Origin: an uncultured Prevotellaceae bacterium
Lineage (GTDB): Bacteria > Bacteroidota > Bacteroidia > Bacteroidales > Bacteroidaceae
NCBI GenBank assembly: GCA_900315095.1
Contig: OMXS01000003.1
Coordinates: 1 to 64,000, forward strand
Direction of reading: 5' to 3'
Length of the DNA stretch: 64,000 bases
Within the stretch, counting starts at the first letter, position 1, and each line of letters starts with the position of its first letter. Below the pieces are notes generated by a model. The model was not told the DNA's origin and did not search any database. It saw only the letters and a program-made list of their open reading frames with translations. Shown piece by piece: positions 6,802-54,444 of the stretch. The translations under genes were made by a program, and so were the position numbers.

Positions 6802-6833
6802 TTTGTGTTTAGTATGTAAAATGCTTATCTTTG
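6802..6833 (+). promoter_or_regulatory. Promoter of the 205-aa lipoprotein gene
   Basis: TTTG (6802-6805), 20 nt, TATCTTTG (6826-6833): a full consensus match. It overlaps an upstream ATG at 6831, so that ATG cannot be the translation start. Confidence 0.75.
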
Positions 6834-6863
6834 CACCAGAAAACCAATAAAACAAATACGAAT

Positions 6864-7481
6864 ATGAAAAAGTTTACATCTACAATCACGATGATTCTGC
6901 TCGCAATGATGGCTTTTACATTCACTTCTTGCGAGGATGAAGAAATAGCACAGGATCTTGCAGGCAGCGAAGGAAGAATATGGCAAGGCACGATAAGCAA
7001 GTATTACAATGACCGCTGGGGTCTTTCTGGCGACCACTATCGTACGGTGATTGAGTTTGTTGGTGATCCTTGGCACTGGACAAAAGGCACAGGCTATGAG
7101 GTGGATTACGATTTGAACGACCCGTATGGCAGCTATTGGTACAGCGAGTTCGACTGGAGGGTTGACCACAAGGTTATCACTCTGCGCTATGCTGACACAG
7201 ATTACAAGCCTGTTTACATCTCCGATTATTATCTTACAAACAATCGTTTTGAGGGTTACATGGATGATGGTACAAATAGTGAGATAAAGTTCAGCCTCTA
7301 TATGATTAAAGATTTCAACTGGGATTATTATAATAATTATAGTTATTATGATGGATTCTATCTCGCTCCTCGCAGGATGGCAGCAGCCAAAGAGGCACCA
7401 TCAGAGAATGATATCGCTCCATCGGAGACGGTTAAGTTCTCAAGCAAGGGTGCTTTTGCAAAGAAGCAAGCGGCTGAATAA
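6864..7481 (+). CDS. Lipoprotein of unknown function
   Basis: A 205-aa protein from ATG 6864, chosen because a frame extension to 6831 would start inside the promoter -7 box. The signal peptide is MKKFTSTITMILLAMMAFTF followed by TSCED, a lipobox with acidic residues after Cys, typical of surface-exposed Bacteroidota lipoproteins. The mature region is rich in Tyr, Trp and Asp (a beta-rich lipocalin-like fold is plausible), for example IWQGTISKYYNDRWG and YGSYWYSEFDWRVD. The tail is Ala/Lys-rich. No family recognised. A strong terminator follows. Confidence 0.85.
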   Translation: MKKFTSTITMILLAMMAFTFTSCEDEEIAQDLAGSEGRIWQGTISKYYNDRWGLSGDHYRTVIEFVGDPWHWTKGTGYEVDYDLNDPYGSYWYSEFDWRVDHKVITLRYADTDYKPVYISDYYLTNNRFEGYMDDGTNSEIKFSLYMIKDFNWDYYNNYSYYDGFYLAPRRMAAAKEAPSENDIAPSETVKFSSKGAFAKKQAAE

Positions 7482-7513
7482 AAATAGTTTCACTAACGTA
7501 TTAATAACAAAAT

Positions 7514-7547
7514 CGGCACGGGATGTATGTTCCGTGCCGTTATTGTT
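7514..7547 (+). terminator. Terminator between convergent genes
   Basis: Perfect 8-bp G+C-rich stem cggcacgg/ccgtgccg (7514-7521, 7532-7539) followed by ttattgttt. Confidence 0.8.
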
Positions 7548-7558
7548 TCAGGGGTATG

Positions 7559-8002
7559 TTATTCATCTGCCCAGTTGCTCTCGCCCTCTACTTTCTTCGC
7601 GTTGACGTTGAACTTTTGTCCTTTAGAGTTGACGAAGGTTCCTGTGATGCTGTTTGTTGTCCTTTGGATGTAGAATGTTCCTGTGTTCTTTCCCTTGATG
7701 TACTCTTTCCAGATGGCGTATCCGTTCTTCTCGCCTGAATATTCCAGATCGATGCTCTTGCCGTTGTTGGTGTTTACGGTGGTGTAACGGTAAGAGAAGA
7801 ACGGCTCGTCGGGCGATACGTGAAGGTTGGTGTAGGTGAACTCCACACCATATTGTCCTATGGAACCAGAATATACAATCACTCCACCGTTCACAGCCTC
7901 CACTTTCGGTGCTGTCTCGGTTGTGTTGGCGGCATTAGCGCTGCTTAATGACAACCCAAATGCTATTGACATAGCGATGAAAAGTTTTCCTGTTGTTTTC
8001 AT
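7559..8002 (-). CDS. Small secreted protein of unknown function
   Basis: A 147-aa protein with a Sec signal peptide (MKTTGKLFIAMSIAFGLSLS, then SANA). The mature part looks beta-rich (VIVYSGSIGQYGVEFTYTNL, GTFYIQRTTNSITGTFVNSKG). The gene begins only 19 nt after the ugd stop codon, so it is probably the last gene of the wzi-lipoprotein-ugd operon. That suggests a link to the cell surface, but no function can be read from the sequence. Confidence 0.8.
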   Translation of the reverse strand: MKTTGKLFIAMSIAFGLSLSSANAANTTETAPKVEAVNGGVIVYSGSIGQYGVEFTYTNLHVSPDEPFFSYRYTTVNTNNGKSIDLEYSGEKNGYAIWKEYIKGKNTGTFYIQRTTNSITGTFVNSKGQKFNVNAKKVEGESNWADE

Positions 8003-8021
8003 AATTGTTGGTTTTTAGATG

Positions 8022-9263
8022 TTAGTCGCGGCGGAATATGTCGCGGGTATATACTTTTTCTTTTACGTCATCGAGTGAGGTGTCGTAGCGGTTGGCTATG
8101 ATTGCGTTGCTCATCTGCTTGAATTTCGCAAGGTCGTTCACCACTTTGCTGCCGAAGAATGTGCTGCCGTCCTCTAGCGTAGGCTCGTAGATGATAACCT
8201 GTGCGCCCTTTGCCTTGATGCGTTTCATCACGCCTTGAATGCTCGACTGGCGGAAATTATCTGAGTTGCTCTTCATCGTGAGACGATAAACGCCCACCGT
8301 AACCGACCTCTCTTCTTGCGGACTGTAGTCGCCGCGGTTATAATAGTCGTAGTAGCCAGCCATCTTCAGCACGCGGTCTGCAATGAAATCCTTACGCGTG
8401 CGGTTGCTTTCCACAATCGCCTCGATGAGGTTTTCTGGTACATCACGATAGTTGGCAAGCAGTTGCTTGGTGTCTTTCGGCAGACAATAGCCGCCATATC
8501 CGAACGACGGATTGTTATACTGGTCGCCGATGCGGGGGTCGAGACACACACCTTTTATAATAGACTGGGTGTCGAGTCCTTTCATCTCGGCGTAAGTGTC
8601 CAGTTCGTTGAAGTAACTCACGCGCAGAGCCAGATAGGTGTTGGCGAAGAGTTTCACCGCTTCTGCTTCGGTAAGTCCCATGAAGAGCGTCTCAACGTTG
8701 GGCTTCAGCGCCGCCTCGCGCAGCAGCGATGCGAACTCATGAGCGGCAGCAACGAGACGTTCGTCGTCCATAACGGTGCCTACGATGATTCGCGAAGGAT
8801 AGAGGTTATCATATAAGGCACAGCTCTCGCGCAGGAATTCGGGTGCAAAGATGATATTCTCTGAGTTGTACTTGCGTCGCACGTTTTCTGTGAATCCCAC
8901 GGGGATGGTGCTCTTAATCACCATTATTGCATCGGGGTTCACCTTCAGCACCAACTTAATGACCGCCTCTACAGCCGAGGTGTCGAAGAAGTTCATGCGC
9001 GAGTCGTAGTTTGTTGGCGTTGCAATCACCACGAAATCAACATCCCTATATGCCTCTTCTGCATCGAGAGTCGCTTTGAGGTTAAGGTCTTTCGTAGTGA
9101 GATATTCCTCCAGTTCGCGGTCGACGATGGGCGACTGGCGGCGGTTCACCATATCCACCTTCTCCTTGATGACGTCAACTGCCGTCACCTGGTTGCGCTG
9201 TGAGAGCAACGTCGCTATAGAAAGTCCGACATATCCTGTGCCGGCAACAGCTATCTTTTTCAT
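8022..9263 (-). CDS. ugd: UDP-glucose 6-dehydrogenase family nucleotide-sugar dehydrogenase
   Basis: Oxidises UDP-glucose (or a related nucleotide sugar) to the uronic acid, a precursor for capsule or LPS. The start chosen is the Met of [20 protein letters not shown], where the NAD-binding GxGxxG sits at the very N-terminus. An upstream Met would overlap the previous gene. Other signatures are [15 protein letters not shown], [20 protein letters not shown], [20 protein letters not shown] and the catalytic-Cys segment [16 protein letters not shown]. About 413 aa, normal for the family. It is in an operon with a Wzi-like protein. Confidence 0.93.
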
Positions 9264-9273
9264 ACTCTGATGT

Positions 9274-9732
9274 TTACAGTTTTTCAAAGTGGATTCTCAG
9301 TTTGTCTGTAGAAAGTGTCATCTTCTTGCCCTTCAGTTCCTCGACTTTAAACGACTGTTCCAATCCTTCCAGTCCGAAAGGCTCAAGTTTCTCGGCATCC
9401 TCGAGTACAGGGTCGCCCTCGTTGCGGTTGTTGTAATATGGTTCATAAAGGCGCAGTATCGATGCTGAGTGCTCAAATCTCATCCAAATATTGTATGCGA
9501 GGTTGTCGCGGTCGCTCAGATTGATGAGTTTATGCTGTACTCCCCAGAACAACCGCTTCTGCGAGAGGTCTGCTGTGCCGCCTGTGGCTATGGTGTCAAC
9601 GGCGGTCATGTGCCAGTATCCGTCGAGTTTCCCGTTGCCTGATGTTTCTATGTCGCAGCTTGTCAGCACTCCCGTCAGGCACATCAAGAGTGCCGCAAGA
9701 GTTAAATATATGTTGCTTCTTTTCATCTTCAT
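9274..9732 (-). CDS. Lipocalin-like lipoprotein
   Basis: A 152-aa protein with a lipoprotein signal ([15 protein letters not shown]). After the Cys comes a segment of the type '[20 protein letters not shown]', the opening usual in Bacteroidales lipocalin-like/DUF5004-type lipoproteins. The gene is 2 nt from the wzi-like gene and 10 nt from ugd, so all are probably on one transcript. Function unknown. Confidence 0.8.
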
Positions 9733-9734
9733 CG

Positions 9735-11300
9735 TTATAGTTTAAAAAGTCCCGACTTTCTTATAGTTACCTGCACACCGTAGTTGTGCCCTAATATTCC
9801 GCCCATATCGGCACCGAAGGCACCGCTGACAGTCCATCCCTGCAGACGGTTGTCGAACTTATAGGCAGCCTCAGCCAGCACGCTGACGTTGTGGTGACGC
9901 TTGGTGTATGGGTCGTCGTAGGTTCCGAAGCCCTCCTGATAGGTTCCCAGAATGCGGTATGAGAGGTTTTCGTTAGGCTCGCCGCTTATTCCTAAGTGGA
10001 ACGCCATAAAGCGGTTATTTTTCACTTCCACCTTTCCGTCTTCGTTATAGATAGGCGAGCGGTATAGCGGGTTGCCCATTACCTGCCCCCAATGCTGCCA
10101 TCCTGGATAAATATGGTGGTTGTAGTAGTTGTCGCGTCCTGTCACTTGGTCTATGATATTCGGAGTATGGTCGTGATAGGTGGGGCCGCTTTGGTATCTC
10201 GAATATATGTACTCGAACACCAGACCGTTAAGCCAGTTGTTGTATTTGTAGTGGAAGTCGATACCCAAAAGCCAGTCTTTGAAGTCGTAGATGAACCATT
10301 TGTGATTGTCTCTCTTGTTCCATTCTTCGCCCTCCTTGTATCCTGCATTTGCTTGAAGCATAGCAGAATGATCCTCAAAGAACTTGTCGGCATACACTCC
10401 AAGTCGCCAGGCATCAGCGTCATAGTTGATGCGCAGCATCCAGGAACCAAGTATGTTGCCCTCTTCGTTCTTATATGTTGTCTCGCTGGCATCACCGCTT
10501 CCGTTAGGAAAGAGTGCGTGCCAATAGGCGCTAAGGCCTGTAGCGTTCTCTAGAACGTCGAAAGTTCCGTCGGCATTCGGCTTGTATCGCGTGCCTCCGA
10601 ACTGCGTTGCCATCTCCAGTCCTGCCTCTACGGAGAGCGGGAAGAATGCGTCCTCGTTGCCCACTTTCAGGTAACCCGCTTTGCTGTGATACAGCACTCC
10701 GTCAGTATATCGTTGCTGGCGTTTGGTGAAGTCGTGCTGCCAGTTGTTGTCGGTGTACTTTCCGTATGCGATGTGTCCTTTCAGGTGGAGCCATCCTCGG
10801 GTAAGAGGGACTGTCCAATATTCGGGCAGCGCCAGTCTCACTTGTGGCACAGGACGGGCATTGATGCCAAAAGTCTGCGAACCGCTCGACAACAGATTGT
10901 CCTTCATCTGCATAGGATAGTGCTTGCTTCCTATTGTAAGTGCTCCGCTCAGCCAACGCAGTTCGCCGTATGCTTGTTGCACAACGAACTTGCTGGTGTA
11001 GTTGAACGGCACCACAAGGTCAACGCCGTAGCCTATGCCCCAGCGTCTGCCTGAGTCCACACGCAACGGTCTTTCCACAGCCGCGCGCAGGTATCCGTTG
11101 TTCTTCTCCAAACTGCTCAAGCCGTGTTTGTTGGCATTGAGCCACAACGGAGTGGTGCCGCGCGAGAACGAGCCTTGCGCTTCCACCATATATCCTAGTC
11201 CGTGCAGCGGTTTCAGAGGTTCTTTCCTTTCTTCCTCTTGCGCCCAGATGGCGGTGGCGGTGAATGCCGCCAGCATGAGGGTAAATATCTTTTTCATCAT
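9735..11300 (-). CDS. Capsule assembly Wzi family outer-membrane protein
   Basis: Wzi-type proteins are outer-membrane beta-barrels that help attach capsule to the cell. This 521-aa protein has a signal peptide (MKKIFTLMLAAFTATAIWA). It has many alternating amphipathic strands with aromatic girdles, ending in a short strand 'NYGVQVTIRKSGLFKL' with a near-terminal aromatic/Leu. The N-terminal segment GYMVEAQGSFSRGTTPLWLN followed by ANKHGLSSLE is typical of the Bacteroidales Wzi-like family. Either of two adjacent Met codons may start it. It leads an operon with a lipoprotein, ugd and a secreted protein, consistent with a role in surface polysaccharide. Confidence 0.85.
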   Translation of the reverse strand: MMKKIFTLMLAAFTATAIWAQEEERKEPLKPLHGLGYMVEAQGSFSRGTTPLWLNANKHGLSSLEKNNGYLRAAVERPLRVDSGRRWGIGYGVDLVVPFNYTSKFVVQQAYGELRWLSGALTIGSKHYPMQMKDNLLSSGSQTFGINARPVPQVRLALPEYWTVPLTRGWLHLKGHIAYGKYTDNNWQHDFTKRQQRYTDGVLYHSKAGYLKVGNEDAFFPLSVEAGLEMATQFGGTRYKPNADGTFDVLENATGLSAYWHALFPNGSGDASETTYKNEEGNILGSWMLRINYDADAWRLGVYADKFFEDHSAMLQANAGYKEGEEWNKRDNHKWFIYDFKDWLLGIDFHYKYNNWLNGLVFEYIYSRYQSGPTYHDHTPNIIDQVTGRDNYYNHHIYPGWQHWGQVMGNPLYRSPIYNEDGKVEVKNNRFMAFHLGISGEPNENLSYRILGTYQEGFGTYDDPYTKRHHNVSVLAEAAYKFDNRLQGWTVSGAFGADMGGILGHNYGVQVTIRKSGLFKL

Positions 11301-17969: not shown

Positions 17970-18078
17970 TGTTCATAAATGATTAGTGAGTGGCTCAGAA
18001 GTCATGAGTGAGGGTGTAAGAGGTATCTAATGAGGATGTAAAACATATCAAGTGACGGAACAATGTTATTAACTTTGT
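17970..18078. repeat. Degenerate 22-bp tandem repeat array (host side of the integration site)
   Basis: Cores agtgag, agtgag, aatgag and agtgac sit at 17985, 18007, 18029 and 18051, exactly 22 bp apart. The array runs into the left attachment repeat of the integrated element. The 170-bp stretch between YARHG promoter and integrase otherwise holds nothing coding. Confidence 0.75.
18058..18078. repeat. Left attachment-site repeat (attL core)
   Basis: 21-bp sequence beginning gaacaatgttattaacttt, repeated identically at 25356-25376. It sits 94 bp before the integrase start codon. Confidence 0.8.
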
Positions 18079-18171
18079 GTAAAAACAATATAAAATATTG
18101 ATATTGTGATACTTACATCATTTTAAGGTTTAAAAGTAGGTCAAAAAAGAACCTCAAAAAAGAACCGTAAA

Positions 18172-19788
18172 ATGGAAGCAAAAGCAGTAAATCAATTAGG
18201 AGTTTTTAACACTTCCCTAAATTTCAACCTTAGAGAGCCAAAGAAGAAGGCAAGCGTTATTTATGCCGTTGTCAAGGTGGGACAAAAGCAAGTTAAAATC
18301 CCGCTGAGGGAGAAAATTCTAACTTGTGCTTGGAATGCAAAGAAACAGGAATGCAACTATTTGCCCGCGCTCACACAGGCAGAAAATGCCCGCAACTTGG
18401 CAGTTAATGAGAAAATAAGTAATGTTAAATTTTGTTTTTACAAAAATTTTTTGTACCTTTGCAATATAGGGGATTGCGTGGAACAGATAAAAAACTACAT
18501 TGAGACGGCAACCCCGCATAACAATGAAACTAACTCTATGGGAAGACCTAAGGCAGCAACAACACTCATTAAAGAAGCCTTTGCAGAGTGGAAAGACAGA
18601 GGAACGGCAAAGGAGAGCACCGTAAATCAGAACAAAACCACCGTTAGCAAGTTTTGCAGATATATTTCAGAGGGCAAAAAGGCAGACAGCGCACGCAATT
18701 ATCTAACCTCAAAGGCAATCAAAGAGTGGGCGGATATGATGTGTGAGCAAGGCACTGCCGCACGCACCATTGATGAGAATTGTAAACTTATAACAAAACT
18801 CATTAATGACTACCTTAGCATCAAATATGACTTGGGGCGCGTGGTTTATAAAAATATCTCCCACAAGGTAGATGGAGGCAAACGCACTGAGGTAACAGTA
18901 GAGGAATTGCAGACGCTTGAAATGGCGCAAGACCTCAATGTTAAGGAAACGGAGGCAAAGGATTTATTTATGATGCAGTGCCTTACGGGTGTGCGCGTCT
19001 CAGACCTGCCCAAACTCTTTTCTAAGGACTTTACAGAGGGAACAGAGGACGGAGTTAAGACACTGACAATTGAAACAAAGAAAAATGAAATAAGCGCGTA
19101 TATTGTAGTAAATGAGAAAATAGAAACTCTTATGCAGAAGTATGAGGGTAAACGTTTTAAGCACTTGCAGCCAAAAGATGCAAAGTCATTTGAGGACAGA
19201 TATAACAGGGTATTGAGAGCGTTGTTTGCAAAGTGTGGCATTGAGAGGGAAATAACATATAAACAGCAACAGGGGAAAAAGGTTATAGAGGTAACGGGTA
19301 AATTATGCAACCTCATAACATCACACTTTGCCCGTCACACATTTATAACGCAGAAATGCCGTGAGGGGTGGAGTGCTGTCAAACTGAAGTTCTGCACAGG
19401 CCACACAAGTGACAAAATGATAACTGAGATATACTCACACTTGTCAAAGGCTGAGAATGATGACAAGAACAGGAAACAAGTAGTAGAAGAGTACAAGCGC
19501 GTGCAAGGTGTGGCAACACAGGAACAGAGCGCACAGGGCGCAACGGATATGATAAAGGAGAAAAAAAGCGTGTTGGCATTTCTTGGCGCGCCCGCTGATG
19601 AGTTTATAGACTGTGAAGATATTGACACCTTGGATAACCTCATTTTCCGCAAGTATGAGAAAAGACTATTTGCGCAAGGTGTGCCCGTGGAAAAGATAAA
19701 AGAGATATATAACGGTACTGGAACCGTTAAGGACAAAAAAAAGGTGTTGGACGCTCTGAAAAAGGAAATGGAAAACGCAAGTATCTAA
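18172..19788 (+). CDS. int: Tyrosine recombinase / integrase
   Basis: A 538-aa site-specific recombinase expected to integrate and excise the element. Residues about 10-80 look like the arm-type DNA-binding domain of Bacteroidota integrases (SVIYAVVKVGQKQVKIPLRE). A core-binding domain spans about 130-225 (TLIKEAFAEWKDRGTAKEST). Catalytic residues in order: Arg275 in CLTGVRVSDLPKL, His385-x-x-Arg388 in ITSHFARHTFITQ, His411 in CTGHTSDKM and Tyr421 in ITEIYSHLSK. The last 100 residues form a charged extension. It lies just inside the left attachment repeat. A perfect consensus promoter inside the gene (18431-18461) followed by an in-frame ATG at 18538 could give a shorter 416-aa form lacking the arm-binding domain. 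Confidence 0.95.
   Translation: MEAKAVNQLGVFNTSLNFNLREPKKKASVIYAVVKVGQKQVKIPLREKILTCAWNAKKQECNYLPALTQAENARNLAVNEKISNVKFCFYKNFLYLCNIGDCVEQIKNYIETATPHNNETNSMGRPKAATTLIKEAFAEWKDRGTAKESTVNQNKTTVSKFCRYISEGKKADSARNYLTSKAIKEWADMMCEQGTAARTIDENCKLITKLINDYLSIKYDLGRVVYKNISHKVDGGKRTEVTVEELQTLEMAQDLNVKETEAKDLFMMQCLTGVRVSDLPKLFSKDFTEGTEDGVKTLTIETKKNEISAYIVVNEKIETLMQKYEGKRFKHLQPKDAKSFEDRYNRVLRALFAKCGIEREITYKQQQGKKVIEVTGKLCNLITSHFARHTFITQKCREGWSAVKLKFCTGHTSDKMITEIYSHLSKAENDDKNRKQVVEEYKRVQGVATQEQSAQGATDMIKEKKSVLAFLGAPADEFIDCEDIDTLDNLIFRKYEKRLFAQGVPVEKIKEIYNGTGTVKDKKKVLDALKKEMENASI
18431..18461 (+). promoter_or_regulatory. Consensus promoter inside the integrase gene
   Basis: TTTG (18431-18434), exactly 19 nt, TACCTTTG (18454-18461). 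An in-frame ATG (MGRPKAATTLIKEAF) follows at 18538. Confidence 0.55.
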
Positions 19789-19954
19789 GGGACTTAACAA
19801 GGACTTTGACAACACCATTTTAAGGGCATTGGGGACATTAAAAACTCAGTGCCTTATATTTTTATTTCAGATTTTCAATAACTCAACAGGGGGCATTTTA
19901 TGGGGTGTTTCACGGGGAGAAAAAAGTGTCATTGAGATTTTTTTTATTAAAAAG

Positions 19955-19984
19955 TGATACTTTTTGAAAGTTAGGTATATTTAT
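19955..19984 (+). promoter_or_regulatory. Element promoter/operator, copy 1
   Basis: 30 bp (tgatactttttgaaagttag, then gtatatttat) identical to 22949-22978. It lies about 30 nt before the ATG of the 55-aa gene. The gap 19789-20015 contains nothing else recognisable. Confidence 0.6.
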
Positions 19985-20015
19985 TAATAAATAAGAATTC
20001 TAACTAATAAGATAT

Positions 20016-20183
20016 ATGGTAAAAGGTACAAGGCATAACGCAGAAACACTCCATAAAATAAGTAAGGGGGTAAAAAAGTATTATGAGAATGAAACACCCT
20101 ATCAGCGGGAGTTAAGAATAAGCAAGCTAAAGCAGAGAAAGTTTATTGAGAAGACTCTATATGAGAAATATATGAGTAAGTAA
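20016..20183 (+). CDS. Small basic protein (55 aa) of unknown function
   Basis: The frame opens with MVKGTRHNAETLHKISKGVK and ends with YEKYMSK. It is rich in Lys/Arg (predicted DNA- or RNA-binding) and probably helical. It follows the 30-bp promoter-like repeat and is closed by a hairpin with a T-run. Its position between integrase and replication gene would suit an excisionase or regulator, but no helix-turn-helix match is obvious, so this is inference. Confidence 0.6.
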   Translation: MVKGTRHNAETLHKISKGVKKYYENETPYQRELRISKLKQRKFIEKTLYEKYMSK

Positions 20184-20211
20184 CTAAGTTAAAATTTCAT
20201 ATTATTATTAT

Positions 20212-20298
20212 GTGAGACGGGACGCATTGCAAGGCGGTTGGTACTTGTTTTCCCCTAAATGTTTTCAGGCATCATTTGCCCGTCTCACTTTTCTTTTT
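20212..20298 (+). terminator. Long-loop hairpin with T-run (terminator or small RNA)
   Basis: Perfect 10-bp stem gtgagacggg (20212-20221) with cccgtctcac (20279-20288), a 57-nt loop, then ttttcttttt. Such a large loop is unusual for a simple terminator; it may be a short structured RNA in front of the replication gene. Confidence 0.55.
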
Positions 20299-20349
20299 AA
20301 CAATAAAAACGTTTGGGATTTGTAATAATTTTTATAAACATTTGGGATA

Positions 20350-21642
20350 ATGGAAAACACTTTTTTTTGCTCACTCTCAACGGAGAGCATTGAGGACAAA
20401 GACACAAGCATTTGGGGTTATTTGCGGTATGAGACGCGGGAAATAACTACAAGTGAACTTATGCGGGCTATTAAGGACAAACGCGCATTTGCGGGAGTAT
20501 TCAATAAGAGAGAATTCACGCAGAAGAACAAGCGCATTGAGAATTGGAAGCAAACTAACATCATACCCGTGGACTTTGACAACAGGAAAATGACGTTTGA
20601 TGAATTTGCAAAGATGACAGAGACAGCGGAACGGCTAAAGCCTACCATTATATATAACACTCAGAATGACGGGGTAAAGGGCAACAGGTACAGGGCATTA
20701 TATATATTGAACGCACCCGTTACAGAGGTTGAAACATATAAACGCTGTTATGATAAAATAGTGAGCCATTGGGAGAGAGTAACGGGAGAGAAAAACAAAG
20801 ACAATTGCGGGGGTGTTGTCACTCAAAGTTTTGCGGGTGCAAAGGACAAAGTTATTTATTATGGTGTCACCTATGACGTTAAAGACTTATTGGGGGACGG
20901 TGAGGAACACAGGCAGAGCGTTGAGCGCGCGCGCGCAGATATTGAGAGGACACCGTTTTTAAATGACTTTTTTAAGTTAAATGTTATTGAGGTTATTGAG
21001 AAGTATATTGGCATATATCCAAGCGTTGAGAGCACTCCGTTAACACAGGCAGATGAGGAACAGGCATTTATATTAATTCCTGATGATTATATGCAGATAA
21101 AGAGATATTGGTATCAGACAGAGGACGTTTTAAGGGGCAGCACATACACAGAAATAAGGAAGATAAGAGACGGAGAGCACAGGCGCAAGAAGTTGTTTAT
21201 AAATGCCATTATAAGACGCTTAATTATGCCCACAATTAGTTTTAATCACCTCCTTTTTAATCTCTTATATGAGTTTCATCATTATATGATTAATGACGGC
21301 AACACAATAACGCGGAAAGACATTTATAATATAGCACTGAGAGCATATAAAGCGGACTTGTCAATGTATGAGGAATTGAGAGAAAAACAGAAGAAACACA
21401 AGTTTATTGTTAACCCCGCATATTGCATAAAGTACGGCATCTCAAAGAACGCGGCAAAGCGCATTGCCATAATGCAGATGAATGATGCAAGGATAGGAGA
21501 ATGTTATGATTTTTTGAAAACAGAAAAAGAGAATTTGCAGATATTGCGGGACAACGGCATTAATATATCTCCAAGGACACTAAAAAGGTGGAAAGAAAGA
21601 AACGGGATAACAAAGAAACGGAATAATAAAATAATGAGTTAA
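20350..21642 (+). CDS. Primase/replication-initiator-like protein (VirE-N/BT4734-like)
   Basis: A 430-aa protein. The N-terminal about 180 residues resemble the primase-like domain of Bacteroidota mobile elements. A DxD pair lies in IIPVDFDNRKM (Asp75, Asp77). It is followed by KPTIIYNTQNDGVKGNRYRA and LYILNAPV, with later GGVVTQSFAGAKDKVIYYG. This order fits an archaeo-eukaryotic-type primase fold. The C-terminus (SPRTLKRWKERNGITKKRN) looks like a helix-turn-helix. Probable role: starting replication of the element at the adjacent repeat region. There is no helicase domain, so a host or helper helicase would be needed. Family assignment is moderate. Confidence 0.6.
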   Translation: MENTFFCSLSTESIEDKDTSIWGYLRYETREITTSELMRAIKDKRAFAGVFNKREFTQKNKRIENWKQTNIIPVDFDNRKMTFDEFAKMTETAERLKPTIIYNTQNDGVKGNRYRALYILNAPVTEVETYKRCYDKIVSHWERVTGEKNKDNCGGVVTQSFAGAKDKVIYYGVTYDVKDLLGDGEEHRQSVERARADIERTPFLNDFFKLNVIEVIEKYIGIYPSVESTPLTQADEEQAFILIPDDYMQIKRYWYQTEDVLRGSTYTEIRKIRDGEHRRKKLFINAIIRRLIMPTISFNHLLFNLLYEFHHYMINDGNTITRKDIYNIALRAYKADLSMYEELREKQKKHKFIVNPAYCIKYGISKNAAKRIAIMQMNDARIGECYDFLKTEKENLQILRDNGINISPRTLKRWKERNGITKKRNNKIMS

Positions 21643-21748
21643 CAGGGTAAGAGTTAATAAGATAATGAGATAACAGGTAACAGGATAATGAGTAAAAAAG
21701 ATAATAGGATAACGGGATAATGAGATATAGAGTTAACAGGGAACAGGG

Positions 21749-21813
21749 AAAAAAGTGCCATAGAGAATTATAAAGAGAAAAAAAAACATTATAGTTCTCA
21801 AAGGCACTTTTTT
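21749..21813 (+). ncRNA. Conserved hairpin H1
   Basis: Outer stem aaaagtgcc/ggcactttt, inner stem gagaattataa with ttatagttctc, A-rich loop, T-run after. Same architecture as H2 and H3. Confidence 0.65.
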
Positions 21814-22139
21814 GTTATGAGGATGGCCGGCAGAAAAAAACAAGTAACAGAGTATTGAGATAATAAATAATAAGATGATGATGTAACGGATAACGGAATA
21901 ATGAATAACGGGGATGACATTATATAAGACACACAGAGCGTTTTATTGTCATTGTCTTGTTACTTGTCAGCCAAAAAGAGATAATGCAACAGGGAGCGTT
22001 TAAGACACCTTGAACGGCATTAGTTTAGCATTTATTAACACTTGTAATGATATTAATTGAAAGTGTTGCAGAATAAGGGAAAAACGGAATAATGAGAAGA
22101 TAACAGGATAATGAGATAAAGAGTTAACAGGGGACAGGG

Positions 22140-22204
22140 AAAAAAGTATCATAGAGAATTATAAAGAAGAGAAAAACATTATAGTTCTTTGTGATACTTT
22201 TTTA
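22140..22204 (+). ncRNA. Conserved hairpin H2 (covarying copy)
   Basis: The outer stem is aaaagtatc/gatactttt, differing from H1/H3 at two base pairs with both sides changed. When G-U pairs are allowed the stem is continuous for over 20 bp on the plus-strand RNA. Confidence 0.7.
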
Positions 22205-22225
22205 TAAGAAACAGAGATAACAAGG

Positions 22226-22403
22226 TAATGAGATGTTGAGATAATGCAGTATTGAGGTAATGATGTAAGAGTAATAAGATAATGAGATAACAGGGTAAGA
22301 GTAATAAGATAATGAGATGTTGAGATAATGCAGTATTGAGGTAATGATGTAAGAGTAATAAGATAATGAGATAACAGGGTAAGAGTAATAAGATAATGAG
22401 ATG
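22226..22403. repeat. 84-bp perfect tandem duplication
   Basis: agatgttgagataatgcagt starts at 22231 and again at 22315; the units match over the whole 84-bp period. This indicates recent duplication inside the repeat region. Confidence 0.85.
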
Positions 22404-22417
22404 ACAGGTAACAGGAT

Positions 22418-22481
22418 AAAAAGTGCCATAGAGAATTATAAAGAGAGAGAAAAACATTATAGTTTTCAAAGGCACTTTTTT
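22418..22481 (+). ncRNA. Conserved hairpin H3
   Basis: Outer stem aaaagtgcc/ggcactttt as in H1, inner stem completed by G-U pairs, loop agagagagaaaaaca, T-run after. Confidence 0.65.
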
Positions 22482-22724
22482 GTTATGAGGATACCCGGAA
22501 GGAAAAACCTTGTTAAATGGCATAGATGAGAACGGGTAAAATTTGGGTTGTCAGAGTGCGTTTTAAATTGTCATTATAAGGCATTAATTAACCCCTCAAC
22601 TATCCATTGAAAAATCACTTTTTGTGTGAAAAGGGGTGGCGTTGGGGTTTCCTGTGTTTCATTTTTTTAATGACATAGGGGGGGAGTGTTGTAGAGTGTG
22701 GACGGTTGAGGTAACAGGCAAATA

Positions 22725-22890
22725 AAAAAGCCAACACCCCATATATAAGGTGTTGACTGATGCCGCTGTTACCCACACGGAAATAACAGCCCATATATAT
22801 ATAAACTTAGACTAAGGCATTTTTTAAAATGACTGCGTACCCGCTTGGTGTAGTTGTTTGTTGCTGAATGAGCACGCAGTCAAACCGTAG
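22725..22890 (+). ncRNA. Structured non-coding segment with three successive hairpins
   Basis: Stem 1: caacacc/ggtgttg (22732-22738, 22749-22755). Stem 2: gctgtta/taacagc (22765-22771, 22784-22790). Stem 3: tgactgcgt/acgcagtca (22830-22838, 22874-22882), followed by a ttttttg run. The segment lies between the origin-like repeats and the capsid operon promoter. Possible roles are a regulatory RNA, a single-strand origin or a packaging signal; none can be chosen from sequence. The rest of 22531-23020 shows nothing else. Confidence 0.5.
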
Positions 22891-22948
22891 TTTTTTGCAT
22901 TTATCTATATATAAATAGTCTGATACTTTAAAAAAAATTTCAAAAATC

Positions 22949-22978
22949 TGATACTTTTTGAAAGTTAGGTATATTTAT
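22949..22978 (+). promoter_or_regulatory. Element promoter/operator, copy 2 (capsid operon)
   Basis: 30 bp identical to 19955-19984, about 43 nt before the first ATG of the capsid operon. A partial copy (tgatacttta) is just upstream at 22921. Confidence 0.65.
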
Positions 22979-23020
22979 AATTAGAAGATAAAAATAACAT
23001 TTTAAAAAACACACGGAACA

Positions 23021-23221
23021 ATGGAACTAATAACAGCATTATTTGTCTGCGCGTACTCTTACATTTTATGTGAGTGCATTTTAAATGCCGTCAGGATAAC
23101 GGCGCAGTGCATAGAGAGTACAATTAACAATGAAAGGGAGGACACTAACAACACAGAAAATAACTTAGACAAAAACATTAATGACAATGAAAAGACAAAC
23201 AGAGACTTGGAAAAAGATTAA
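23021..23221 (+). CDS. Small single-pass membrane protein (66 aa)
   Basis: Begins MELITALFVCAYSYILCECI, one hydrophobic segment with three Cys in the first half of the protein. A hydrophilic Asn/Asp/Glu/Lys-rich tail follows. First frame after the 30-bp promoter repeat; its 3' end overlaps the HNH gene by about 35-40 nt. Function unknown. Confidence 0.5.
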   Translation: MELITALFVCAYSYILCECILNAVRITAQCIESTINNEREDTNNTENNLDKNINDNEKTNRDLEKD

Positions 23222-23717
23222 AGAGTACGGGGGTAAGTACTCAGTGAGTAACTTGGGTAGAATAAGGAACAACAGCACAAACAAGGAGCTAAAGACTTGC
23301 ATAAATGACTACGGTTACAACGTTGTGCAACTGTGTAAACAGGGACAACCGCAAACGCACTTGGTGCATAGATTGGTGGCAAAGGCATTTATCCCAAACA
23401 ATAAGGAGTTGCCGCAGATTAACCACAAGGATGAAGTAAAGACAAACAACAACGTCAATAACTTGGAGTGGTGCACGGCAAGTTATAATAAGAGGTACAG
23501 CAGCGCAAAACCCATAATGGGGGTTAAGTATGATGTTATTATAGCGTTGCCTTCACTTACAGACTGCACCCGCTTGGGGTTTAAGCCTTCCGCGTTGTCA
23601 GTGGCGGCAAACAATGGCGGCAGGGCATACGGCTTTACTTGGACTTATATTAACAAAGAGACGTATAATAATCTTAAAAAACTAATGAAACAGGACACAC
23701 ACATTATTGCAATATGA
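23181..23717 (+). CDS. HNH endonuclease with NUMOD4-type DNA-binding region
   Basis: A 178-aa protein. The N-terminal NUMOD4-like segment reads WKKIKEYGGKYSVSNLGRIR (residues 10-29). The HNH core is LVHRLVAKAFIPNN, then QINHKDEVKTNNNVNNLEWC (residues about 61-98). The C-terminal part (GFKPSALSVAANNGGRAYGF) resembles NUMOD1-like DNA-binding repeats. HNH proteins beside terminase genes are needed for DNA packaging cleavage in several HK97-like phages; a free-standing homing endonuclease is the alternative. A second Met at 23187 could also be the start. The stop overlaps the next gene's start (ATGA). Confidence 0.85.
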   Translation: MTMKRQTETWKKIKEYGGKYSVSNLGRIRNNSTNKELKTCINDYGYNVVQLCKQGQPQTHLVHRLVAKAFIPNNKELPQINHKDEVKTNNNVNNLEWCTASYNKRYSSAKPIMGVKYDVIIALPSLTDCTRLGFKPSALSVAANNGGRAYGFTWTYINKETYNNLKKLMKQDTHIIAI

Positions 23718-24052
23718 GGAACTTGAAGAGAAAAATAAATAACTATCTTATGACTCTGTACGGGGAAAAACAAGACGCTTGGGACATACCGCTAAATGAG
23801 TTTTTATATATGGAACAGGTGATGAGTGAGTTAAAAAAGGACATAAAGGACAACGGTATTTTTACCCTTGACAGATACCACCAAAAAAAGGTTAACCCCG
23901 CGTTAAAGACCTTTGCGGAACTATACCCCAAATATGCAAGCCTTATGGGGGAACTTGGGATAACACCAAAGGCATTTGCAAAGATAAGGGGCAAAGATAA
24001 CGGGGAAGAAGTGGATGAGTACATTATGAGCCTTACGGGAGAAAAAAAATAA
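23714..24052 (+). CDS. P27-like phage terminase small subunit
   Basis: A 112-aa helical protein. The segment VNPALKTFAELYPKYASLMG followed by ELGITPKAFAKI (residues 60-91) matches the P27-family small-terminase pattern, in which 'NP' and a long helix are followed by 'LGLTPxaRxkl'. The role would be to recognise the element's DNA and hand it to a large terminase, which is not encoded here. Translational coupling with the HNH gene (ATGA overlap) and the capsid gene 23 nt downstream match the HNH-TerS-capsid order of HK97-like phages. Shorter than many family members; the match is by eye. Confidence 0.6.
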   Translation: MRNLKRKINNYLMTLYGEKQDAWDIPLNEFLYMEQVMSELKKDIKDNGIFTLDRYHQKKVNPALKTFAELYPKYASLMGELGITPKAFAKIRGKDNGEEVDEYIMSLTGEKK

Positions 24053-24075
24053 CTAAGACAAAAAACAATTGAAAA

Positions 24076-24993
24076 ATGATTAAAACAGATGACAAATTAA
24101 ACCTGTTGGACGCTGTTAAGCGTTTGGCAAACAAAGAAGATTTTAACCTAAGACAGAAGCAGGCAAATGACAAGGCACTGAGAAAATTCAAGGAAATGGG
24201 AATAAGTAACGCAGGCGCGTTTAACTTTGAAATGCGCGCGGTGATGCCTAATGAAAACATTGTTGGCACTCACACAATGGGTTTTTACGGCAAAGGTGCA
24301 GAGGGTGACGTTTTGGACAAGGTGCTTTTCCTTGACAACTTGATGTGTAGCGCAAAGTTGCCGTTTATTGACATTAACGGTGTTGAGTGGTGTGATAATA
24401 TGCCCGTGACAGATGACAATGAGGTTATTAACACCGTGCTTAAACCCCACCGCCTTGCAACAAGTGTGACAATTTCACGGGAATACCTCAATAACGTTGA
24501 GCAGTACAATGATATGCTTTTGCAGTTGCTTGCTAACGCTGTTTATGGCAAACTTGTTGCTTCTATGTTTTCCGCAAGCGTTGGAACATCAATAAATCCG
24601 CGCGGTCTTTTTGGTGACTTGGAGCAAGTGAGTATCTCAAGCCTTGAGGACTTGACAGATTTACAATATGAGGGTGACAAGCAGATGACTAATAACGTAT
24701 GGGTTATTAGTCCAAAGGCAAAACAAGCCATTAATAAAATGGCATCCTACCCGCTTATTAATAACGGTGAACTACTTAACAACCCCGCTATTTGTTCAAG
24801 TAAGGCGCAGGATGGTTTAGTGGGTTATTTACCACTTGACTATGTTGCAGTTGGTCAGTGGGCTTGCGGGAGCATCACCATTGACAATATGTCAAGGGCA
24901 AAAGAGGGAGAAATAATTATATATATTGATTGTTACTTTGACTTTGCTAACCTTAACCCTAACTTTGTTAAGGTAGGTGTTATCTCAGAATAA
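24076..24993 (+). CDS. HK97-fold major capsid protein
   Basis: A 305-aa protein. LKPHRLATSVTISREYLNN (residues 122-140) matches the HK97-family spine-helix entry 'kp.rl.a.v.iSrelL.d'. It is followed by a long helix (MLLQLLANAVYGKL) and NPRGLFGDL, the usual 'P.Gl' loop. WVISPKAKQAINKM (209-222) corresponds to 'wvmnp.t...l'. The C-terminal VGQWACGSITIDNMSRAKEG (259-278) and YIDCYFDFANLNPNFVKVGV correspond to the P-domain end of phage capsid proteins. The N-terminal helical region before the fold is only about 45 residues and no maturation protease is encoded. Encapsulin is a remote alternative but does not fit the context. Confidence 0.85.
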   Translation: MIKTDDKLNLLDAVKRLANKEDFNLRQKQANDKALRKFKEMGISNAGAFNFEMRAVMPNENIVGTHTMGFYGKGAEGDVLDKVLFLDNLMCSAKLPFIDINGVEWCDNMPVTDDNEVINTVLKPHRLATSVTISREYLNNVEQYNDMLLQLLANAVYGKLVASMFSASVGTSINPRGLFGDLEQVSISSLEDLTDLQYEGDKQMTNNVWVISPKAKQAINKMASYPLINNGELLNNPAICSSKAQDGLVGYLPLDYVAVGQWACGSITIDNMSRAKEGEIIIYIDCYFDFANLNPNFVKVGVISE

Positions 24994-25014
24994 TAAAGTA
25001 AAAAAACAGACAAT

Positions 25015-25149
25015 ATGACACTAACTTATATGTTTAGGGGTGAAGTTGATTATATCATAAAACAGGACGGCACCATAATAAGAAACAATATTGACAAGGA
25101 CAAAATAATAGAAAGAGACTTAAAAGGCAGAGAGTTTTTTGATTTTTAG
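25015..25149 (+). CDS. 44-aa protein after the capsid gene
   Basis: The frame reads MTLTYMFRGEVDYIIKQDGT and ends REFFDF, 21 nt after the capsid stop and directly before the operon terminator. Mixed strand/helix composition, charged. Could be a small decoration or regulatory protein; no family recognised. Confidence 0.5.
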   Translation: MTLTYMFRGEVDYIIKQDGTIIRNNIDKDKIIERDLKGREFFDF

Positions 25150-25163
25150 TGTGTTGAGAGAGA

Positions 25164-25205
25164 GGAAAAAAGGGGTGAGAGTTGTTTATCTCACTCCTTT
25201 TTTGT
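25164..25205 (+). terminator. Terminator of the capsid operon
   Basis: A 15-bp stem (25166-25180 with 25189-25203) with one G-U pair; arms start aaaaaagg and end ccttttttg. Confidence 0.8.
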
Positions 25206-25333
25206 GTGTTAAGACAGGTTAAAGATTTGGAGGGTGTTTTTAATTGAGTTATCTTTGTAAAAAGAACAATAAAAATAACCCCTACTAAAAAATCTTATTA
25301 AGTGATTGAGTATTAACAAGTTAGCGTATTTTA

Positions 25334-25376
25334 GAACAAAGTTATTAACTTTGTTGAACAATGTTATTAACTTTGT
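25334..25376. repeat. Right attachment site (attR core and an adjoining imperfect copy)
   Basis: 25356-25376 is identical to attL. Another copy with one mismatch lies exactly 22 bp upstream (25334-25354), so the right end also shows the 22-bp repeat rhythm of the host array. Confidence 0.75.
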
Positions 25377-25409
25377 TCGCCCGTTTGCTACATATTGGAA
25401 ACTAAGGAG

Positions 25410-40295: not shown

Positions 40296-40378
40296 CATAT
40301 AAAGTGACTTGACTATGTTATTAACTTTGTTGAACAAAGTTATTAAGATAGTCGAACAAAGTTAATAACATAGTTAAG
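40296..40378. repeat. 22-bp repeat array with att-like units
   Basis: Units with gttattaactttgttgaaca, then gttattaagatagtcgaaca and gttaataacatagt recur at a 22-bp step. The sequence acatataaagtgacttgact followed by atgttattaactttgt closely parallels the left junction of the integrated element. Located between two convergent genes. Confidence 0.7.
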
Positions 40379-54042: not shown

Positions 54043-54440
54043 GGGGTTGACTGGATTTGACAGCAGGCTGGAGTGGTACGTAAGCACGCGGAGCGTTGGC
54101 TGGTGGCTCCTAAATCCCAATGGTCATCAAATTTATCTGGCAACAACAACTATGCTCTCGCTGCCTAAACGAAGTACAGTAGTTTACTGGCTTAATTCCG
54201 TCACTAGGTGATGGAACGAGACATCGCTCAAAAGCCGTCGTCCCGAGGCTCTTTGGTTTAGCGGTGCAGCAAAATCGGGAATAGTCAGGCAATGCCTCGG
54301 TTGCATGATGAGATTTAGAGGATAAGGCAGTGGTTGGTGGTCCAGGTCTTGCCGCTGCACGAAAACCGAAGGCTGGAATAAGCGTGTAGAAAGCGTATGG
54401 TTTCCCTGTTTGGACGCGGGTTCGACTCCCGCCAGCTCCA
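54043..54440 (+). ncRNA. ssrA: Transfer-messenger RNA (tmRNA)
   Basis: Rescues stalled ribosomes and tags incomplete proteins. The 5' end ggggttgactggatttgaca and the 3' end gttcgactcccgccagctcc form the tRNA-like domain (7-bp acceptor with G-U pairs, T-arm with GTTCGACTC). The tag frame encodes GNNNYALAA (54139-54165) then TAA, matching the Bacteroidota tag type ending ALAA. The CCA end is not encoded. Followed by a terminator and then a second partial copy of the 3' end. Confidence 0.96.
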
Positions 54441-54444
54441 CTTT

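Follow-up and report, generated by a model that had tools for sequence, protein, structure and literature searches.

The first 64,000 nucleotides of contig OMXS01000003.1 (assembly GCA_900315095.1), from an uncultured Prevotellaceae bacterium, were analysed as a whole and are referred to here as the window. Within it, positions 18058–25376 form an AT-rich insert with a GC content of 0.376, against 0.496 in the flanks. Judged from its sequence, this insert is somewhat more probably than otherwise a Bacteroidales phage satellite that would exploit a helper phage in two ways: through a terminase small subunit (TerS) that redirects the helper's DNA packaging and through a homologue of the major capsid protein (MCP) that remodels the helper's capsid in the manner of the staphylococcal protein Ccm. 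The element carries genes for an integrase, a Rep-like protein, a NUMOD4-HNH endonuclease, TerS, and MCP, all of them open and with the main open reading frames (ORFs) intact. As the original prediction had proposed, TerS and MCP are its only recognisable particle genes, a six-frame search having found no portal, terminase large subunit (TerL), or tail gene.

That prediction had described a satellite with its own capsid and had compared it with cf-PICIs only, thereby overlooking the closest precedent, Ccm of SaPIbov5. By analogy, Ccm, a protein incorporated into the helper's capsid, is a better model for the single MCP homologue than an "own capsid". The element would thus work in outline like known satellites; what is new is a variant in a phylum for which no phage satellite encoding capsid genes was found in the open-access literature (subscription papers and preprints lie outside this scope). 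If the reading is true, lone capsid-protein homologues occur as satellite weapons outside staphylococci, and a coat protein without a delta domain makes the role of that domain in capsid size control directly testable.

Packaging and capsid genes

All features of the element given here lie on the forward strand. The P27-type TerS (23714–24052; 112 amino acids [aa]) matches PF05119 at 6.5e-7 and 30.1 bits, above the curated cut-off of 24.7, and TIGR01558 at 6.5e-6 and 26.1 bits, below the NCBIfam cut-off of 45.6. After a gap of only 23 bases follows the HK97-type MCP homologue (24076–24993; 305 aa), with PF05065 at 3.2e-10 and 40.3 bits (curated cut-off 24.2) and TIGR01554 at 8.4e-5 and 21.9 bits, below the NCBIfam cut-off of 27.5. 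The integrase, HNH, TerS, and MCP calls of the original prediction therefore stand, all four being above Pfam cut-offs in intact genes.

Profiles built from phage proteins only (13 MCPs and 8 TerS; E-values for 20,000 sequences, filters off) recover the proteins of the window element and of two further small elements, L030 in genome G574 and L051 in genome G722. The MCP profile matches the window protein at 1.6e-24, that of L030 at 3.9e-48, and that of L051 at 1.3e-4; the TerS profile matches the window protein at 2.5e-9 and that of L030 at 6.7e-6, the latter reaching 5.6e-4 in Pfam, below the cut-off. Neither the profiles nor the trees include locus L050; the broken MCP of L007 was dropped, and L008 (272 aa) was kept in the phage-only profile and left out of the trees. 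Against solved structures, the MCP alignment profile matches the capsid proteins 8gta (9.6e-10) and 6b0x (0.0037), as well as giving short matches of similar score to the non-capsid entries 4y6c (8.1e-4) and 4y6w (0.023); no entry named Ccm appears up to E 10, the presence of a Ccm chain in that collection being unchecked. TerS has no match among solved structures, and an AlphaFold model of the MCP from three sequences (mean pLDDT 42.6) is too poor for use.

The window MCP covers positions 86–393 of the 406 in the phage profile, i.e., the whole mature part. Positions 1–85, which in phages such as L033 form an N-terminal delta-type extension, are absent from it. An equally short MCP ORF occurs in phage L006, where a delta-like ORF (in 10500–11000) lies just upstream in the same frame with a stop codon between; this separation reflects either a gene that is naturally split or a lesion.

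Remnants of other particle genes were sought in six frames with 337 mechanically picked ORFs (at least 70 aa) from 16 phage-type loci, at an E-value of 1e-3. Matches are confined to int, rep, HNH, TerS, and MCP in the window element, to int, rep, and MCP in L030, and to int and MCP in L051; no portal, TerL, protease, tail, or connector remnant was found in the three elements by this search.

The first gene of the element encodes a tyrosine integrase of 538 aa (18172–19788; PF00589 2.1e-11). It is followed by orf55, a small basic protein (20016–20183) that has a counterpart in L030 (phmmer E-value of 1.2e-5, calculated for a small set), and by the Rep-like protein of 430 aa (20350–21642), whose homologues include the L030 Rep and proteins at loci lacking a TerS or MCP match and which has a putative role in replication. 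The label "primase-like" that had been attached to it is not supported, for it matches no Pfam, PHROG, or NCBIfam family below 0.05, and BT4734-like_N and DnaB_C are carried by the replication protein of L051 only. Solved structures yield only Toll-like receptor chains (E 0.6–0.9), taken as chance, and its AlphaFold model is partial (mean pLDDT 63.3).

Downstream lie orf66 (23021–23221), a small protein without a family match below 0.1 in Pfam, PHROG, and NCBIfam, and the endonuclease (23181–23717; 178 aa), whose NUMOD4 (1.2e-13) and HNH_3 (5.7e-8) matches are above the Pfam cut-offs. The endonuclease is 37.5% identical over 144 aa to the HNH protein of phage record L055. Earlier weight on the HNH gene is not upheld: because it is of the NUMOD4 kind and its L055 homologue sits beside the integrase, not TerS, no packaging role is given to it. 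The last gene, orf44 (25015–25149), encodes a small protein without a match in the same three collections, in which no protein of the element matches AlpA either.

Sister elements and phage relatives

MCP relatives are sparse. Counting the element's own genome, and in genome samples that overlap, 4 of 400 genomes match at family level; at genus level 3 of 300 do so, and 10 of 399 when a two-row profile is used; at order level a three-row profile matches 6 of 252. Among the MCP loci read—a set that excludes L007–L009, G985, G1025, and G941 (L111; 3.6 kb, its MCP lying at the end of the contig)—three are small elements that lack any other particle gene: those of the window, L030, and L051, measuring 7.3, 8.3, and 8.3 kb, respectively, within their repeat limits.

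L030 belongs to another species of the genus and is also present as JAFPME010000002.1 (L032), from Prevotella sp. RGIG1270, a metagenome-assembled genome from cattle rumen. It encodes homologues of the integrase (35% identity), orf55, Rep, and MCP (38% identity) plus a TerS; its TerS and MCP genes, however, are on the opposite strand beside the integrase, so that gene order differs from that of the window. L051 has an integrase, a NUMOD3 protein where orf55 would be, a different Rep, and a divergent MCP. The proposed search for syntenic loci was thus answered in part: the sister L030 holds int, orf55, Rep, TerS, and MCP, but gene order is not conserved and no TerS was found in L051. L030 is bounded by copies of TCAGTGAAATTGCTGA at about 7445 and 15674, with more 22-bp units after the right copy, and L051 by near-palindrome copies with TAATTTACTTTGT at about 8645 and 16886; with the repeats of the window element, this places all three in or beside near-palindromic repeats.

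In the MCP tree, the three elements form one clade (98/98) apart from 13 other MCPs, with L051 on a long branch. The window element and L030 come out as sisters both in an MCP tree without L051 (100/100) and in the integrase tree (98/97), in which L051 is not firmly grouped with them (55/51). GC content at third codon positions (GC3) is alike for int, rep, and mcp within each element (0.43–0.47 in the window element, 0.33–0.35 in L030, 0.41–0.43 in L051), unlike that of the two host genes flanking the window element (0.63 and 0.65); the modules are therefore probably long-time travel companions.

Other MCP-bearing loci are phages or their remains, with gene names mostly read by eye from ORF lists and Pfam applied only to the genes for which it is cited. 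Portal- or TerL-like ORFs mark G163 (L006), G601, G695, G421, G641, G270, G587, G401, and G900 by eye as phage- or prophage-like. The phage record L055/L056 (IMGVR_UViG_2630968845_000002) has int, HNH, Rep, TerS, and MCP genes related to those of the window; phage L046 (G695) shares TerS and MCP, and phage L033 integrase and MCP. PF04860 portals are present in the L055 and L033 records, with TerL and the L046 portal recognised by eye, and L055 and L046 carry a protease–MCP fusion. Among those compared, the TerS nearest to that of the window are the ones of L055 and L046, and phages of this type are perhaps a possible kind of helper.

Rep relatives occur in 9 of 301 family genomes, own genome included, with coverage of G059 confined to a short locus; phmmer with the window proteins finds no ORF matching TerS or MCP at seven Rep loci (L021–L027), three of which end at contig ends. 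An integrase profile matches 8 of 250 genus genomes at 1e-20, the window's own and G574 among them. Loci L022–L024 and L095–L097 have a related integrase and/or Rep without a TerS or MCP match, and several show a serine-recombinase-like ORF by eye.

The genome contig collection gives no MCP match with the window protein alone and one with the alignment (L032, the same place as L030), and plasmids give none. In the phage collection, the MCP has one match, an unannotated faecal record (L010) in which ORFs resembling TerL, portal, and protease were recognised by eye; the L051 MCP has none. Scans of IMG/VR with Rep confirmed no relative; the integrase and Rep alignments led there to phage records only (L033, L034/L113, and L114), of which L114 has no MCP or TerS match.

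Known satellites and competing readings

The closest likeness is to cos-type SaPIs with Ccm. As described for SaPIbov5, Ccm is a lone HK97-type capsid homologue that is co-incorporated with the helper coat protein, occupies pentamers, and shrinks the capsid; that account makes it the sole island protein required to redirect helper capsid assembly and identifies no protease in the island (PMC8569155). In contrast to the window MCP, Ccm has a delta domain (N-terminal residues 1–87 of 355, cleaved off), and the SaPI group concerned is described as being without TerS, whereas the window element has one (PMC8569155). The hosts also differ, Staphylococcus on one side and Bacteroidales on the other. 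Pac-type SaPIs resemble the element in pairing their own TerS, for packaging redirection, with a capsid-size factor—functions that are putative in the window—but their factor is CpmA/CpmB, not a coat-protein homologue (PMC8569155).

Like the window element, cf-PICIs encode MCP, TerS, and an HNH protein and are thought to be helper dependent; their definition, however, includes portal, protease, connectors, and TerL besides MCP and TerS (PMC10690885, PMC13230959). The window element falls outside that definition, the six-frame search having found no TerL, portal, protease, or connectors; its HNH is of the NUMOD4 type, and it measures 7.3 kb against a cf-PICI average of 14 kb (PMC10803314). PICMIs are likewise very small islands with an integrase and a replication gene, yet they are described with int, alpA, and primase at fis (PMC10803314); the window element has no AlpA match, does not lie at fis, and has packaging and capsid genes. 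Satellites other than cf-PICIs are reported to depend on phage-made packaging proteins, typically adding one or two redirecting proteins of their own (PMC12409344, 2025). The general features of a phage satellite are present in the window element: an integrase and a putative replication gene, without a complete set of particle genes. Among marine satellites, some VEIMEs and tycheposons combine an integrase with a small number of phage genes for the head or for packaging. These may hold a set like that of the window element, which would lower its novelty.

Under the favoured reading of a Ccm-like remodeller combined with TerS redirection, the cycle would open with infection by a helper phage, perhaps one resembling L055/L046, or with its induction, and the element would then excise and be replicated by Rep from a repeat-rich region. 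Expression of the orf66-HNH-TerS-MCP genes would be driven by the second copy of the block found ahead of rep. The element's TerS would substitute for the DNA-recognition subunit of the helper, feeding element DNA to the helper's large terminase, and the delta-less MCP homologue would be built into the helper procapsid beside the helper MCP, changing capsid size as Ccm of SaPIbov5 does. Portal, protease, large terminase, and tail would come from the helper. This reading is favoured because of the precedent of Ccm and the pairing of TerS with a capsid factor in the kit of pac-type SaPIs. More tentatively, the element may stand for a Bacteroidota satellite family whose entire hijacking kit consists of TerS and a delta-less, in effect pre-matured coat protein that needs no protease and co-assembles into, or caps, the procapsid through the delta domains of the helper. 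We know of no earlier description of capsid piracy by a delta-less coat protein via helper delta domains.

Several findings weigh against the favoured reading. Ccm carries a cleavable delta domain and the window MCP has none (PMC8569155). In L051, no candidate TerS ORF is supported by the phage-only profile, and the TerS of the window and of L030 give no mutual phmmer match up to E 1. The remnant search missed L030's own TerS, so that short, diverged remnants could escape it. The host genome contains no PF04860 portal (0/1) and no PF03354 TerL (0/1), its only PF05065 match being the element's own MCP, and PF04860 is also absent from the genomes of the other two elements (0/2 for G722 and G574, the latter only 50% complete); the search for a resident helper prophage of these families was thus negative. 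No MCP relative was found in IMG/VR, and hence no sign of packaged DNA. Six other integrase-positive genomes have no MCP or TerS by profile in the stretches examined (L098–L100 being cut by contig ends), as also fits the capture of cargo. The repeated block ahead of the two gene groups and the motif TGATACTT, with 6 copies in the element against 0.26 expected (1 of 500 shuffles as high), count in favour of the reading; the motif, however, was chosen after the sequence had been viewed and does not occur in the stretches of L030 and L051.

The match of the MCP to the full mature portion of the phage profile, and the separate clade of the three MCPs—a feature stated for cf-PICI capsids (PMC11389934)—would suit a minimal capsid-forming satellite whose shell consists wholly of element MCP, with portal, protease, TerL, and tail taken from a helper. 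This is unlikely: a coat protein without delta domain, portal, and protease would hardly build a particle alone, no connector match was found either, and a shell only 22%–31% identical to the aligned phage MCPs would need to fit a portal and connectors of foreign origin. Alternatively, TerS and MCP might serve as decoys, sabotaging assembly of the helper and shielding the host, the island being transferred by other means or without particles. Related integrases and Reps at loci without a TerS or MCP match, and the lack of MCP relatives in IMG/VR, agree with such interference; TerS retained with MCP in two lineages points instead to packaging, and the similar sizes of the three elements also count against decoys, leaving this reading rather less probable still.

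The occurrence of Rep and integrase without a TerS or MCP match might also reflect an integrative element that captured HNH-TerS-MCP from a phage as functionless cargo. We regard this as improbable, in that TerS and MCP are intact in both the window element and L030, whose MCPs are 38% identical, a distance at which neutral genes would be expected to have acquired stop codons, and in that the two elements are sisters in both gene trees and share composition across modules. Least probable is a decayed prophage from which TerL, portal, protease, and tail have been lost. Phages do share genes with the element (int, HNH, Rep, TerS, and MCP in L055, TerS and MCP in L046, int and MCP in L033), and L110 (G843; 6812–10486) exemplifies decay, with a 329-aa MCP and, by eye, protease-like and tape-measure-like ORFs and no portal or TerL nearby. 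In the window element, however, no remnants were found in a six-frame search of limited reach, the main ORFs are intact, and the same reduced set recurs in another species with a different gene order and strand; it is therefore not a simple decayed prophage, the outcome by which the original prediction would have fallen.

Insertion site and candidate control regions

That the element is integrated, as had been proposed, is borne out by empty sites in two relatives of the same genus, G423 (L058) and G439 (L059), in which the YARHG gene adjoins the symporter gene and the element is absent; these supply the empty attachment site that had been sought. The YARHG proteins are 93% (G423) and 85% (G439) identical to that of the window, where the element is inserted between the YARHG and symporter genes.

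The 21-bp direct repeat GAACAATGTTATTAACTTTGT reported earlier is indeed present at both ends (18058–18078 and 25356–25376), but its copies are units of a host array. A near-copy at 25334–25355 immediately precedes the right-hand repeat, and the 22-bp unit occurs 5 times in the window with up to 3 mismatches, against 0.00 expected in 100 shuffles. Two of these five near-palindromic copies sit in a second host array, apart from the element (40310–40375), and the unit therefore seems to be a dispersed host repeat, not purely a signature of the element. Read by eye, the empty sites contain 4 (G423) and 3 (G439) units; with the second array in the window, this indicates that the element entered a pre-existing host array. 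On the attL side lies one unit (18058–18078), and on the attR side two tandem units (25334–25378), one or both derived from the host array. The right end is thus not fixed by the repeats alone and falls at 25334 or 25356. Integrases related to that of the window appear to target near-palindromic repeats of this shape.

Two 56-bp blocks, 80% identical, precede the two gene groups: one, containing TGATACTT at 19955, lies upstream of orf55-rep (19949–20004) and the other upstream of orf66-HNH-TerS-MCP (22943–22998). Both are promoter-like in sequence and may act as promoters. Between these groups, a repeat-rich stretch (21617–22485) begins inside the end of rep and continues as non-coding DNA with iteron-like repeats and three hairpins, and it is a candidate replication origin. 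The hairpins are strong (21745–21817, 22136–22207, and 22414–22485; RNA z-scores of −8.4, −9.8, and −5.9, respectively), and neither they nor the stretch as a whole have an Rfam match. The first and third contain GUGCC/GGCAC where the second contains GUAUC/GAUAC, a difference of two compensatory changes; the three may form part of the origin or take part in controlling transcription. Elsewhere in the window, a transfer-messenger RNA (tmRNA) gene lies at 54043–54441 and encodes the tag GNNNYALAA.

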